A DNA stretch of 64,000 nt from Granulicella sp. 5B5 (GTDB lineage: Bacteria > Acidobacteriota > Terriglobia > Terriglobales > Acidobacteriaceae), in the NCBI RefSeq assembly GCF_014083945.1, contig NZ_CP046444.1, positions 1,054,001-1,118,000 on the forward strand, in the 5' to 3' direction. The notes under the pieces are model-generated. The model did not search any database. It was not told where the DNA came from and saw only the letters and a program-made list of their open reading frames with translations. The translations under genes were made by a program, and so were the position numbers. Shown piece by piece: positions 39,598 to 43,404 of this stretch (the first letter of the stretch is position 1; every line of letters begins with the position of its first letter).

Positions 39598-41439
39598 ATG
39601 ACGAACGCGAACCAACACCCCACACTCACCGGAGCCGAGATCCTCTGGGCCTCGCTCGCCGGCGAAGGCACCACCACCGTCTTCGGCTACCCCGGCGGCG
39701 CGATCCTACCCATCTATGATGCGCTGAGAAAGTTCCCGACGATCCACCACGTCCTCGTCCGCCACGAGCAGGGCGCATCGCACATGGCGGACGGTTACGC
39801 CCGCGCCAGCGGCCGCGTAGGCGTCTGTATGGCGACCTCCGGCCCCGGTGCCACCAACCTCGTCACCGGCCTCGCCACCGCCATGCTCGACAGCATCCCC
39901 ATGGTCGCCATCACCGGTCAGGTCTCGTCGAAGGTCCTCGGCTCCGACGCCTTCCAGGAAGTCGACATCACCGGCATCACACTGCCCGTCACCAAGCACA
40001 ACTTCCTCGTCACGCGCGCCGAGGACATCGCCCCGGCCATCCGCGAGGCCTTCCAGATCGCCCGCAGCGGCCGCCCCGGCCCCGTCCTCGTCGACATCAC
40101 CAAAGACGCGCAGCAGGCCACCGCCGTCTACGACTTCGACGCCGCTGCGCCGCCCGCCTACCGCCCGCACCCCATGCTGCACAAGCAGCTCCACGCCGAC
40201 TCGCCTTCGATCAAGCAGGCACTCGAGCTCATCCTCGCCGCGAAAAAACCAGTCATCCTCGCCGGCCACGGCATCGTCGAATCCGGCGCTGAGCGCGAGG
40301 TAATCGCCTTCGCCGAAGCCCTGCAGATCCCCATCGCCAGCACACTTCTCGGCCTCGGCGCTGTCCCCGCGGCACACCCCCTGCAGCTCGGCATGATGGG
40401 CATGCACGGCGAGTCGTGGGTCAACAACGCCATCCAGCAGGCCGACCTCCTGCTCGCCTTCGGCATGCGCTTCGACGACCGTGTCACCGGCAACCTCGCC
40501 AGCTACTCACCCAACTCGAAGAAGATCCACATCGAAATCGACCCCTCCGAGATCAACAAGAACGTCCGCGTAGACGTCTCCCTCATCGGCGACCTCAAGC
40601 AGGTCCTCAACATCCTCCTGCCCCAAATAGCCCGTCATTCTGAGTGGAGCGCCGCGAAGTCGAAGAACCCCGAAGGCGTTCGCCCCGCCACGACCGCGCA
40701 AACCTTTTCAACCACCGCTTCGCCTTGGCTCTCCGAGATCAACAAATCCAAAGGCTCCGCCGCCGTCCGCGACATCATCAATCTTCCCGACAATGGCCAC
40801 CTCTACGCCGCGCACGTCATCCACGACATCTGGCGCGAGGCCCAGGCCGCAGGCCGCCTCGAAAACACGATCATCGTCACCGACGTAGGCCAGCACCAGA
40901 TGTGGGAAGCGCAATACTTCAAGCACGAGTCCCCACGTTCGCTCGTCACCTCCGGCGGCCTCGGCACCATGGGTTTCGCGCTGCCCGCAGCCATCGGCGC
41001 AAAAGCCGCGCAGCCGCACAAGGATGTCTGGGTCATCGCCGGCGACGGCGGCTTTCAGATGACCGCCGCCGAGCTCTCCACCATCCAGCAGGAGGGCCTC
41101 GCCATCAACATCGCCGTCATCAACAACGGCTTCCTCGGCATGGTCCGCCAATGGCAGGAGACCTTCTACGACAAGAACTACTCCGCCTCGCCCATCCTCT
41201 CGCCGGACTTCGTCATGCTCGCCGCCGCCCACGGCATCGCGGGCGCCAGCGTCAGCAAGCGCAGCGACGTCATCCCGACCGTCACCAAAGCCCGCACCAG
41301 CGGCAAACCCTTCCTCATCAACTTCCAGGTAGAAAAAGAAGACGGCGTCTACCCCATGATCGCCCCCGGCGCCGCCCTCCACGAAATGGTCCGCCGCCCA
41401 ACCCACGACCCGCTCCTCGAAACCGCGGAGGATGAATAG
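39598..41439 (+). CDS. ilvB: Acetolactate synthase large subunit, with a repeat-derived insertion
   Basis: ThDP- and FAD-dependent catalytic subunit of acetohydroxyacid synthase, first shared step of branched-chain synthesis. The N-terminal ThDP domain shows FGYPGGAILPIYDAL, the catalytic Glu in LVRHEQGASHMADGYARA, then the central FAD-binding domain and the C-terminal ThDP motif (GDGGFQMTAAELSTI ... NNGFLGMVRQWQ). Residues about 345-378, between the central and C-terminal domains, are an insertion (ARHSEWSAAKSKNPEG ...) whose DNA at 40633-40673 reads like a dispersed palindromic repeat of the GTCATTCTGAG type, in frame. 613 residues. GGAGGA precedes the ATG. Confidence 0.95.
   Translation: MTNANQHPTLTGAEILWASLAGEGTTTVFGYPGGAILPIYDALRKFPTIHHVLVRHEQGASHMADGYARASGRVGVCMATSGPGATNLVTGLATAMLDSIPMVAITGQVSSKVLGSDAFQEVDITGITLPVTKHNFLVTRAEDIAPAIREAFQIARSGRPGPVLVDITKDAQQATAVYDFDAAAPPAYRPHPMLHKQLHADSPSIKQALELILAAKKPVILAGHGIVESGAEREVIAFAEALQIPIASTLLGLGAVPAAHPLQLGMMGMHGESWVNNAIQQADLLLAFGMRFDDRVTGNLASYSPNSKKIHIEIDPSEINKNVRVDVSLIGDLKQVLNILLPQIARHSEWSAAKSKNPEGVRPATTAQTFSTTASPWLSEINKSKGSAAVRDIINLPDNGHLYAAHVIHDIWREAQAAGRLENTIIVTDVGQHQMWEAQYFKHESPRSLVTSGGLGTMGFALPAAIGAKAAQPHKDVWVIAGDGGFQMTAAELSTIQQEGLAINIAVINNGFLGMVRQWQETFYDKNYSASPILSPDFVMLAAAHGIAGASVSKRSDVIPTVTKARTSGKPFLINFQVEKEDGVYPMIAPGAALHEMVRRPTHDPLLETAEDE
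40633..40673. repeat. Repeat-like palindromic sequence inside ilvB
   Basis: CGTCATTCTGAGTGGAGC ... GCGAAGTCGAAGAACCCCG has the GTCATTC start and GAA(C)CCC end of REP-type elements, related to class B in this window. It has no stop codon in the ilvB frame. Confidence 0.55.
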
Positions 41440-41547
41440 ATGATGCGGGAACGTCGAAAGAACAATCGACTTCAGCGCAAGACGGGCACATGCCCATTCT
41501 CTGTCCTGCTCAATGAGACACCTGAAACGTGTCCCATCACGTTCGGC

Positions 41548-42203
41548 AAAGCGCCGAAGGCGCGTCCTATACCAGCCTGGGGCGTAGCCCCAGGTACGCC
41601 CGCCATAACGGACAGAGGGCTGAAAGCCCGATCTATCCCAGCCTCAGTCCCAAAGGTAACGCTCGTCGAATTCCATCCTGTATTTCCCAAGGAACGCACG
41701 AAACTCATCCTGAAACGTCTGCTTCTTGTGGTGCGACTCCTGCGTATCAATGTAATGAATCAACGCATTCAAATCGGACGGGCCAACAGAGAACGCGCCG
41801 TACCCGCGTTGCCACGCAAACTTCGTCAGCTTCGGAGACTGGCTCTTCAACCACTTAGACGAGGACGCTTTGAGTTCCGCAACCAAATCCGAAACATTCG
41901 CGGTGCGGGACAGGCGAATGGCGAGATGAACATGATCGCCAACACCTCCAACCCGAAAACATTCGCATTGGTTATTCCGAATAACAGTCGCAAGGTACGC
42001 ATAAAGATCGGGCCGTACATCCACATCAAGAACGGGGACGCGGTCCTTCGTACTGAAGATCACATGGACGAGCAGGAACGCAAGCGATTGAGCCATTGCG
42101 GAGAGTATAGATCGGACTTTCAGCCCTCTCGTATGCGCTTGACCTCTTTCCTAGGGCTGGGGCTCCGTCTCAGGCTGGTATCGAACGCGCTTCCAGCGCT
42201 TTT
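41548..42203. mobile_element. REP-associated transposase element with long inverted arms
   Basis: About 656 bp: the transposase gene sits between left arm (41548-41638) and right arm (42105-42203), which are inverted repeats of each other. Inner parts match at 22 of 24 positions (GAGGGCTGAAAG(C/T)CCGATCTAT, 41615-41638 with 42105-42128). Outer parts share GCGC...GGCGCGT, ATACCAGCCTG and AGCCCCAG. Each arm folds into small hairpins such as CTGGGGC-GTA-GCCCCAG. It separates ilvB from ilvN. Confidence 0.7.
41644..42096 (-). CDS. IS200/IS605-type HUH transposase (REP-associated tyrosine transposase-like)
   Basis: Y1 transposase of 150 residues. The HUH metal site is GDHVHLAI with His55 and His57, and the likely catalytic tyrosine is Tyr115 in the IHYIDTQESHH helix. 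FAWQRGYGAFSVGPSD and the C-terminal YRMEFDERYLWD are typical of the small transposases found across Acidobacteria. No accessory TnpB is present. Inverted repeat arms lie five to ten bases outside both ends of the gene, the layout of REP-associated (domesticated) transposases rather than of an ordinary insertion sequence. It may have spread the dispersed repeats of this genome; this is inference. Confidence 0.88.
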   Translation of the reverse strand: MAQSLAFLLVHVIFSTKDRVPVLDVDVRPDLYAYLATVIRNNQCECFRVGGVGDHVHLAIRLSRTANVSDLVAELKASSSKWLKSQSPKLTKFAWQRGYGAFSVGPSDLNALIHYIDTQESHHKKQTFQDEFRAFLGKYRMEFDERYLWD

Positions 42204-42714
42204 AGCCTGCACCCTTTTCATCTGCACATTCTCACTCCTCGGCTGCAACTCTGTCCCTAAACCCGCCACCACTTCAACGCCTGTGACCGCCACCGCGCAA
42301 ACCTACCCCGCACACCCCACCACATCACCACCACCCTTCAAGCTCTTCCACCAGACCAAAGACTCCATCACCCTCGTCACCGGCGACGACGCAACCGACG
42401 ACCAAATCGAAGCCATCGTCTGGCAGCTCCATGACGCCGCACAAACTCACACCTTCAACAAGCTCCACATCCCGCAAAAGTTCATCGACGACCGCGACCC
42501 CATCGTCTTCTTCCACATCTATCGCGGCTCCAAATGCGCCGCTGAAAAATACGCCGCTGGAGACCCACCCTGCGGTGGCAGCTACCACGCCGCCGGCGAC
42601 TACACCCTCGGCAGCTTCAAGAACCCCAACCGCGACGACGGCGTCCTCCTCCACGACGAAGACCATCAGGTCGAACTCTGGAACGCCGACGCCGCATCCA
42701 CTGGTCCGCACTAG
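42133..42714 (+). CDS. Putative lipoprotein of unknown function
   Basis: 193-residue reading frame with a type II signal: hydrophobic LPALLACTLFICTFSLLG followed by the lipobox Cys38. The mature part begins Ser/Thr/Pro-rich and continues into a small domain (DQIEAIVWQLHDAAQTHTFNKLHIPQ, IVFFHIYRGSKCA). No family recognised. The only available start codon, ATG 42133, lies inside the right arm of the transposase element, so the native start may have been replaced when the element inserted. It is followed by a CCC heptad repeat and ilvN. Confidence 0.55.
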   Translation: MRLTSFLGLGLRLRLVSNALPALLACTLFICTFSLLGCNSVPKPATTSTPVTATAQTYPAHPTTSPPPFKLFHQTKDSITLVTGDDATDDQIEAIVWQLHDAAQTHTFNKLHIPQKFIDDRDPIVFFHIYRGSKCAAEKYAAGDPPCGGSYHAAGDYTLGSFKNPNRDDGVLLHDEDHQVELWNADAASTGPH

Positions 42715-42783: not shown

Positions 42784-43404
42784 ATGCTCCACACCTTCGT
42801 AGCCCTCGTTCAAGACAAACCCGGCGTGCTCACCCGCGTCGCCTCGCTCTTCCGCCGACTCAGCATCAACATCGTCTCGCTCACCGTCGGCGAGTCCGAA
42901 CGTCCCGACACCTCGCGCATGACCATCGTCTGCGAGGCCCCCGAAAACGCAGCGCACCGCATCCGCGCCTCGCTCTATAAGCTTGAAACCACCGTGCACG
43001 TCGATGAGCTCAATCGTTCCGAAGCCGTCATCCGCGAACTCTGCCTCATCAAGGTCCAGGTCGGCCCGGACTCCCCGCACGGCCTCCACTCGCGCTCCCA
43101 GGTCTTCGAGCTCGCACAGGTCTTCCGCGCCCGCGTTGTCGACCTCGCACCCGAGTCCATCATGCTGGAGATGACCGGCAGCGCCTCCAAAATCGAAGGC
43201 CTCATCCAGGTCCTCGGCGAATCCAATTACACCATCCTCGAGGTCTCGCGCACCGGCCGCATGGCCATGCGCCGCGGTCACCACACCAGCCGCGTCCTCA
43301 AGGCGCTCGGCAGCCCCACCTCGCTGCCGCCAGCACACTTTCCCACCCTCGACCCCGACGCTCTCAACGAGGAAGACATCCTTCCCAGCGAGTTCGACGA
43401 TTAG
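42784..43404 (+). CDS. ilvN: Acetolactate synthase small subunit
   Basis: Regulatory subunit of acetohydroxyacid synthase carrying an N-terminal ACT domain (TFVALVQDKPGVLTRVASLFRRLSINIVSLTVG, residues 4-37) and a C-terminal ACT-like domain (SKIEGLIQVLGESNYTILEVSRTG); it binds valine and activates IlvB. 206 residues, with a Glu/Asp-rich tail. Usually ilvN follows ilvB within a few bases; here 1.3 kb with a transposase element and a lipoprotein gene intervenes. GAGG lies four bases before the ATG. Confidence 0.94.
   Translation: MLHTFVALVQDKPGVLTRVASLFRRLSINIVSLTVGESERPDTSRMTIVCEAPENAAHRIRASLYKLETTVHVDELNRSEAVIRELCLIKVQVGPDSPHGLHSRSQVFELAQVFRARVVDLAPESIMLEMTGSASKIEGLIQVLGESNYTILEVSRTGRMAMRRGHHTSRVLKALGSPTSLPPAHFPTLDPDALNEEDILPSEFDD

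Follow-up and report, generated by a model that had tools for sequence, protein, structure and literature searches.

We interpret a short transposase locus between ilvB and ilvN, located in the 64,000-nt stretch of Granulicella sp. 5B5 DNA analyzed here (hereafter, the window), as a copy of a widespread mobile element that ends in inverted arms of three hairpins each and has a sole gene, encoding an HUH transposase of subclass 1.2, with the Rfam family Acido-Lenti-1 being the DNA end of this element. We would put the probability of this reading at about three in four. The more specific proposal that we are looking at a REP/REPIN-like system on the IS200 side (subclass 1.2), found in a dozen phyla and explaining Acido-Lenti-1 as a single-stranded DNA end, seems likely to us, albeit less firmly so; it would extend the REP/REPIN phenomenon from class 2 to the IS200 side and to phyla in which it has not been described.

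The transposase and its arms in the window

The transposase gene (41644..42096, minus strand) encodes a protein of 150 aa. The first-pass annotation had called this an HUH transposase, and profile searches, which identify the ORF as Y1_Tnp (PF01797, E 1.9e-24) and as a match to NF033573 (65.5 bits; cut-off, 55), bear this out. In the alignment of genus proteins, the HUH residues His55 and His57 as well as Tyr115, Gln119, His122, and His123 are invariant (12/12); the window protein carries the Y motif YIDTQESHH together with DHVH and WQRGYG, and its C-terminal tail can be aligned to the end across the genus rows. For the AlphaFold model of the protein (pLDDT 86.5), the nearest folds found by Foldseek are ISDra2 and IS608 TnpA (E 4e-8 to 1e-6), with TnpAREP (4er8) as a weaker match (E 1.8e-4). 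To judge from its sequence, the gene is intact and under purifying selection (dN/dS of ~0.07 between the window genome, G000, and genome G005). It is a single-copy gene in the 3.93-Mb, single-contig window genome; relatives that are 55 to 79% identical to it occur in 12 of the 28 genus genomes, and some other genomes hold several copies. Given that its GC3 is 0.61, compared with 0.87 for ilvB, and that the protein tree mixes phyla, the history of the gene is consistent with horizontal transfer.

Inverted arms of ~95 bp had also been proposed at first pass, and both the inverted repeats and the matches of a covariance model, R1, confirmed arms of ~88 to 95 nt with the order H1-linker-H2-spacer-H3. 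R1 was built from 27 genus arms, both window arms included, leaving out L041_3p, whose arm is cut by a contig end, the degenerate L044_3p, and a few others. The left arm, on the 3′ side of the transposase gene (41549..41636, plus strand), is a complete three-hairpin arm: H1 (41551..41563) reads GCGCC-GAA-GGCGC; H2 (41576..41594), preceded by an ATACCAG linker, reads CCTGGGGC-GTA-GCCCCAGG; and H3 (41617..41629) reads GGGCT-GAA-AGCCC and is followed by GATCTAT, all three lying on the plus strand and being supported by covariation. The right arm, on the 5′ side of the gene (42107..42201, minus strand), is degenerate. Here, as judged from the sequence and the genus alignment, H1 (42187..42199, minus strand; GCGCT-GGA-AGCGC) and H3 (42114..42126, minus strand; GGGCT-GAA-AGTCC) are intact, and H2 (42157..42174, minus strand) has decayed. 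Between the two arms, an inverted repeat of 46 nt (41548-41593/42157-42202) is 83% complementary and another of 23 nt (41614-41636/42107-42129) is 96% complementary. With R1, the left arm scored 92.9 bits (E 7e-19), as against 58.2 bits (E 1.5e-10) for the right arm, each of the two being itself part of the model's building set.

The expectation that each arm would fold into hairpins holds for the left arm, whose fold under DNA parameters comprises all three (z -3.5, with 0/200 shuffles as good), and for only part of the right arm, in which H1 and H3 pair, H2 is broken, and a fold other than that with three hairpins has the lowest energy (z -1.3). As the right arm has lost H2, the window element is probably no longer mobile in cis.

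Regarding its class, the protein fits the IS200-side subclass 1.2 of TnpAY1, an assignment made by motifs. Shared features are the length of ~150 aa (~148 reported), DH[IV]H, WQ, Y---Q--HH, a C-terminal extension, and low copy number; Y---Q--HH itself is found in 76/79 named relatives by motif count. Subclass 1.2 has been reported to lack REPs and to be found chiefly among Cyanobacteria and Bacteroidetes (Quentin et al. 2018, PMC6006769), and titles and abstracts of the open-access TnpAREP literature since 2018 describe no REPs for it. In contrast, the present element has conserved three-hairpin arms and dispersed copies, and occurs in Acidobacteriota, Verrucomicrobiota, Planctomycetota, and others.

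Could this be an ordinary IS200/IS605 insertion sequence (subclass 1.1) whose ends resemble inverted repeats by chance? NCBIfam and Foldseek do place the protein beside IS200/IS605 TnpA, IS608 and ISDra2 being the closest folds, and the likeness may extend to the way in which HUH and tyrosine residues act on hairpins of single-stranded DNA; in addition, the element is tnpA-only and ~650 bp long. However, we deem such an origin very unlikely in light of the Y---Q--HH motif and the conserved C-terminal tail, which differ from the Y[IV]ENQ of subclass 1.1 (PMC6006769), the low copy number, and the 55 to 79% identity within the genus where near-identical copies would be expected. Moreover, IS200 ends are small subterminal hairpins, unlike the long inverted three-hairpin arms seen here, which also occur alone elsewhere, so the first-pass distinction from IS200 ends was upheld. 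TIRYTs/TIRtrons, too, combine a Y1 transposase with terminal inverted repeats; some of them come from Acidobacteria, and some are present in repeated genomic copies (Di Nocera et al. 2013, PMC3733652). However, the GGGGWSAS motif common to many of them does not characterize our arms. We set TIRYT membership aside on the basis of the published subclass assignment, in which 26 TIRYTs fall into subclasses 2.1, 2.2, and 2.5 and none into 1.2 (Quentin et al., PMC6006769).

Arms linked to the transposase across phyla, and the Rfam family Acido-Lenti-1

The arm design is shared by the flanks of the genus transposases, with both arms pointing inward. Over the three helices, 96.7% of the cells in the 27 genus arms are paired, compensatory changes affect 13/18 base pairs, and 62 cells are doubly changed, as compared to 16.1 ± 3.7 after shuffling (0/500) and much lower values in slid controls. 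Among 111 arm matches at transposase loci across phyla, all 18/18 pairs show compensatory change, with 332 doubly changed cells versus 96.5 ± 14.2 in shuffles and far lower numbers in slid controls; note that this alignment was fitted to the R1 structure, which favors pairing, and so the shuffles and slides weigh more than the raw percentage. Specifically, all 5 pairs of H1 covary both in the genus and across phyla, and H2 covaries at 6/8 pairs in the genus and at 8/8 across phyla. The arms are GC-rich hairpins adjoining genes, as chance palindromes or transcription terminators of the neighboring genes would be, but compensatory changes at every pair across phyla, a constant order and distance of the arms with respect to the gene, and the lack of a T-run 3′ of the arm hairpins in the window sequence leave such an explanation with next to no probability.

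For a broader view, we scanned one genome per species with a profile and kept the best 80 of >500 relatives. The 79 tabulated ones comprise 25 from Verrucomicrobiota, 17 from Acidobacteriota, and 15 from Planctomycetota, the remainder belonging to Lentisphaerota, Armatimonadota, Kiritimatiellota, Myxococcota, and others. According to R1, at least one arm flanks 70/80 of these named relatives, at odds with the "no REP-like hairpins" trait of subclass 1.2, and no arm was found with this model at the other 10/80 loci. A 5′ arm lies on the gene strand at 59/80 loci and a 3′ arm on the opposite strand at 56/78, with both present at 45/78; the distance from the gene is typically 4 to 16 nt. Arms occur at a density of 3.2 per kb up to ~250 bp from the gene and of 0.17 per kb beyond. 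The arms thus belong to the transposase, a link that extends across about a dozen phyla.

One part of the arm is already on record, albeit as an RNA. RF01687, the Rfam family of Acido-Lenti-1 RNA, matches H1-linker-H2 of the left arm on the strand opposite to the arm (41550..41594, minus strand; 45.8 bits, gathering score 37, E 6.4e-9), and the right arm gives a sub-threshold match (42150-42200, plus strand; 28.2 bits). Sequence and structure agree over this segment, as do the phyla (Acidobacteria and Lentisphaerae), the difference being that RF01687 is filed as a small RNA, whereas here it is part of the end of a transposase element. RF01687 therefore is the H1-linker-H2 part of the arm. In 149 Acidobacteriota genomes, scored with cut-offs of E <= 1e-15 for the transposase (33 genomes) and E <= 0.001 for RF01687 (37 genomes), 28 have both, 5 the transposase alone, 9 RF01687 alone, and 107 neither (Fisher p 1.3e-17, odds ratio 67; these statistics ignore relatedness). 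As a side observation, one Acidobacteriota genome with a 91% complete assembly (G150) shows at least 38 RF01687 matches, many of them with equal top scores, and no transposase match.

Acido-Lenti-1 was listed as a probable RNA of Acidobacteria and Lentisphaerae by Weinberg et al. 2010 (PMC2864571), and its function is described as little known in a 2026 paper (PMC13298647); our own literature search for the arm sequence itself found nothing. If Acido-Lenti-1 were a genuine structured RNA, the transposase would merely insert beside it or carry it along. Such a scenario could invoke the 2010 listing, the left arm's folding well with RNA parameters, too (z -3.2), and the 9/149 Acidobacteriota genomes with RF01687 and no transposase. 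Nevertheless, we consider it improbable: inverted copies of the motif flank the transposase gene on both sides, the motif also forms convergent palindromic pairs, arms number from dozens to more than 100 per genome, and the 11 matches that RF01687 gave in 20 transposase loci of Acidobacteriota all fall within ~200 bp of the gene. Wobble pairs provide a further hint. Read in arm orientation, they are mostly G-T and not A-C, namely, 17 versus 7 in a manual set (11:7 for the 5′ arm and 6:0 for the 3′ arm) and 23:5 and 32:6 at the two ends in a model-fitted set, whose counts are biased by the model. This suggests that the folding strand is the arm's own in each case, and the reverse of the one annotated by Rfam. 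Acido-Lenti-1 is thus most likely a DNA element end and not an RNA gene, which gives a testable identity to a family that has been filed as RNA since 2010 and is still annotated as a regulatory ncRNA; if true, "Acido-Lenti-1 ncRNA" calls near genes of interest should be taken for mobile-element ends. A covariance model and exact arm sequences are now at hand for cleavage assays.

Dispersed arms and REP-like organization

Arms are by no means restricted to the transposase locus. R1 detects them in 20 of the 28 genus genomes, including some without a transposase gene, and finds at least 125 in genome G003 and at least 130 in G004, these counts being lower bounds because 150 candidates were scored per genome. 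The window genome is sparsely populated: its eight strong R1 matches comprise two at the gene and six elsewhere, that is, about six other full arms in 3.93 Mb. The first-pass annotation had suggested a search for solitary copies, which thus did turn up arm-like repeats elsewhere in the genome. It took the covariance model to do so; a search with IUPAC patterns returned only the left arm itself, and BLAST with the whole element yielded mostly chance short matches. Two of the solitary arms in the window genome (L085 and L087) contain an extra hairpin of ~40 nt in the H2 loop.

The transposase had been imagined as the engine behind the repeats of this genome, a role that the numbers do not support. 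Only one of the six dispersed arms is nearest to the arms of the resident element, most of them being of another subtype; with so few other full arms and with this difference in subtype, the window copy probably is not the source of the solitary arms in its own genome. In G004, a transposase of that genome provides the closest arm for roughly 20 of 28 dispersed ones, as assessed by eye and with ties included.

In G003 and G004, many arms occur as convergent palindromic pairs of ~190 bp with 11 to 18 bp between the arms. Such pairs were present, by manual count, at 22 of the 35 loci inspected in these genomes, 10 of them having been pre-chosen as pairs, and all were convergent; the window genome showed none. 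At three orthologous intergenic sites, arms are present in both G003 and G004 and absent from the matching interval of genome G010, whose flanks are too diverged to fix the boundaries of the element. Comparing 10 pairs of G003 flanks (2422 of 3120 nt query) with G004 and G010 did not reveal a clean empty site whose ends could be defined exactly, and the G003/G004/G010 site comparison yielded no rule for target sites. At two loci, L272 and L293, palindromic arm pairs are centered in a flanking inverted repeat (gcgagagtc/gactctcgc and ggcacgaaacc/ggtttcgtgcc, respectively), which perhaps reflects a preference for hairpin targets. At another, L276 (G003:C1:5520768-5522654), ~300 bp of non-transposase DNA with a different abundant repeat lies between a half arm and a full arm.

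This organization is reminiscent of REPs with their class 2 transposases (RAYTs) and of REPINs, in which a low-copy HUH transposase sits between inverted palindromes, further copies of which are scattered singly and in inverted pairs. Specifically, dispersed inverted pairs without a gene, as in REPINs, exist in G003 and G004. The differences lie in the details: class 2 (TnpAREP) proteins have Y---NP and GT[AG]G-footed hairpins, whereas the present ones have Y---Q--HH, and each arm has three hairpins (~90 nt), with pairs spanning ~190 bp. The Y---NP motif was found in 0/79 named relatives, and the arm alignments show no conserved GT[AG]G foot before H1, H2, or H3, leading us to reject membership in class 2. 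Of the REP-associated layout proposed at first pass, the bounding and dispersed palindromes therefore stand, and the class 2 affiliation does not.

How such a system might work can be pictured from the biochemistry of IS608/ISDra2 and TnpAREP (general knowledge and PMC6006769). The transposase would recognize the hairpins of the arm in single-stranded DNA, such as that at replication forks, and Tyr115, together with a metal bound by the HUH motif, would nick beside the arm hairpins. Cleavage and rejoining could then move either the gene-carrying element or, in trans, a gene-less arm pair, and the arms left behind would make up the REP/REPIN-like population.

The ilvB-ilvN site

In the window, the element is located between ilvB (39598..41439, plus strand; acetolactate synthase large subunit, TIGR00118, 701 bits) and ilvN (42784..43404, plus strand; small subunit, NF008864/TIGR00119), as had been reported. 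It is not the only gene to separate them, for a lipoprotein gene with the lipobox SLLGC (~42133..42714, plus strand), recognized in the ORF list and by genus comparison, lies there as well. Nor is the ilvB-ilvN pair "usually tight", as another gene already intervenes in most relatives. The comparison of the locus in genus genomes without an intact element, likewise suggested at first pass, found nine in which a lipoprotein and/or an acetyltransferase gene separates ilvB and ilvN and five with a tight gap of ~100 bp.

Six genomes (G000, G001, G005, G011, G025, and G026) carry the element in antisense orientation ahead of the lipoprotein gene that neighbors ilvN, and G027 retains a remnant. Despite the recurrence of site and orientation, a single ancestral insertion between ilvB and the lipoprotein gene was rejected by the AU test, given that the transposases at this site do not form one clade (p 0.0135; G000+G005+G025, p 0.0019). 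It follows from this tree topology that the site has probably been occupied more than once, or that one copy has been replaced by another.

These observations also bear on the possibility of a domesticated gene, one that no longer moves by itself and is kept for a host function such as repair or genome structure, its arms being binding sites or relics. The single copy in the window genome, the low dN/dS between G000 and G005 (~0.07), the site and orientation common to six genus genomes, and the decayed right arm would all suit such a gene. On the other hand, the lack of one clade at the shared site and the phylum-mixing tree point to repeated arrival, the gene is present in only 12 of the 28 genus genomes, and other genomes contain several copies. 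We therefore regard domestication as rather unlikely, if the most credible of the alternatives, and favor the mobile element.

In the window and at L132 and L112, the neighboring lipoprotein gene seems to draw its start or signal peptide from arm sequence. In the window, it is the right arm that contains the ATG closest to the lipobox on its upstream side. In G026, MEKRKGLKALPIFALIVASLLTVGC of the lipoprotein start spans an H3 hairpin; in G025, the lipoprotein MAAPLALMLSLTLGC starts in H1. A separate curiosity is an unbroken frame of 424 codons (41440-42714, plus strand), which begins just after the ilvB stop codon, traverses the whole element antisense to the transposase, and continues into the lipoprotein gene. 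Because the matching frame in G025 contains a stop, we assume that it is probably a product of chance in GC-rich DNA. Lastly, ilvB itself has an in-frame insert (~40626-40760; RHSEWSAAKSKNPEGVRP...) whose DNA resembles the common "cattctgag...gaagaacccc" repeat, and a stretch similar to this insert is found at ~43430.
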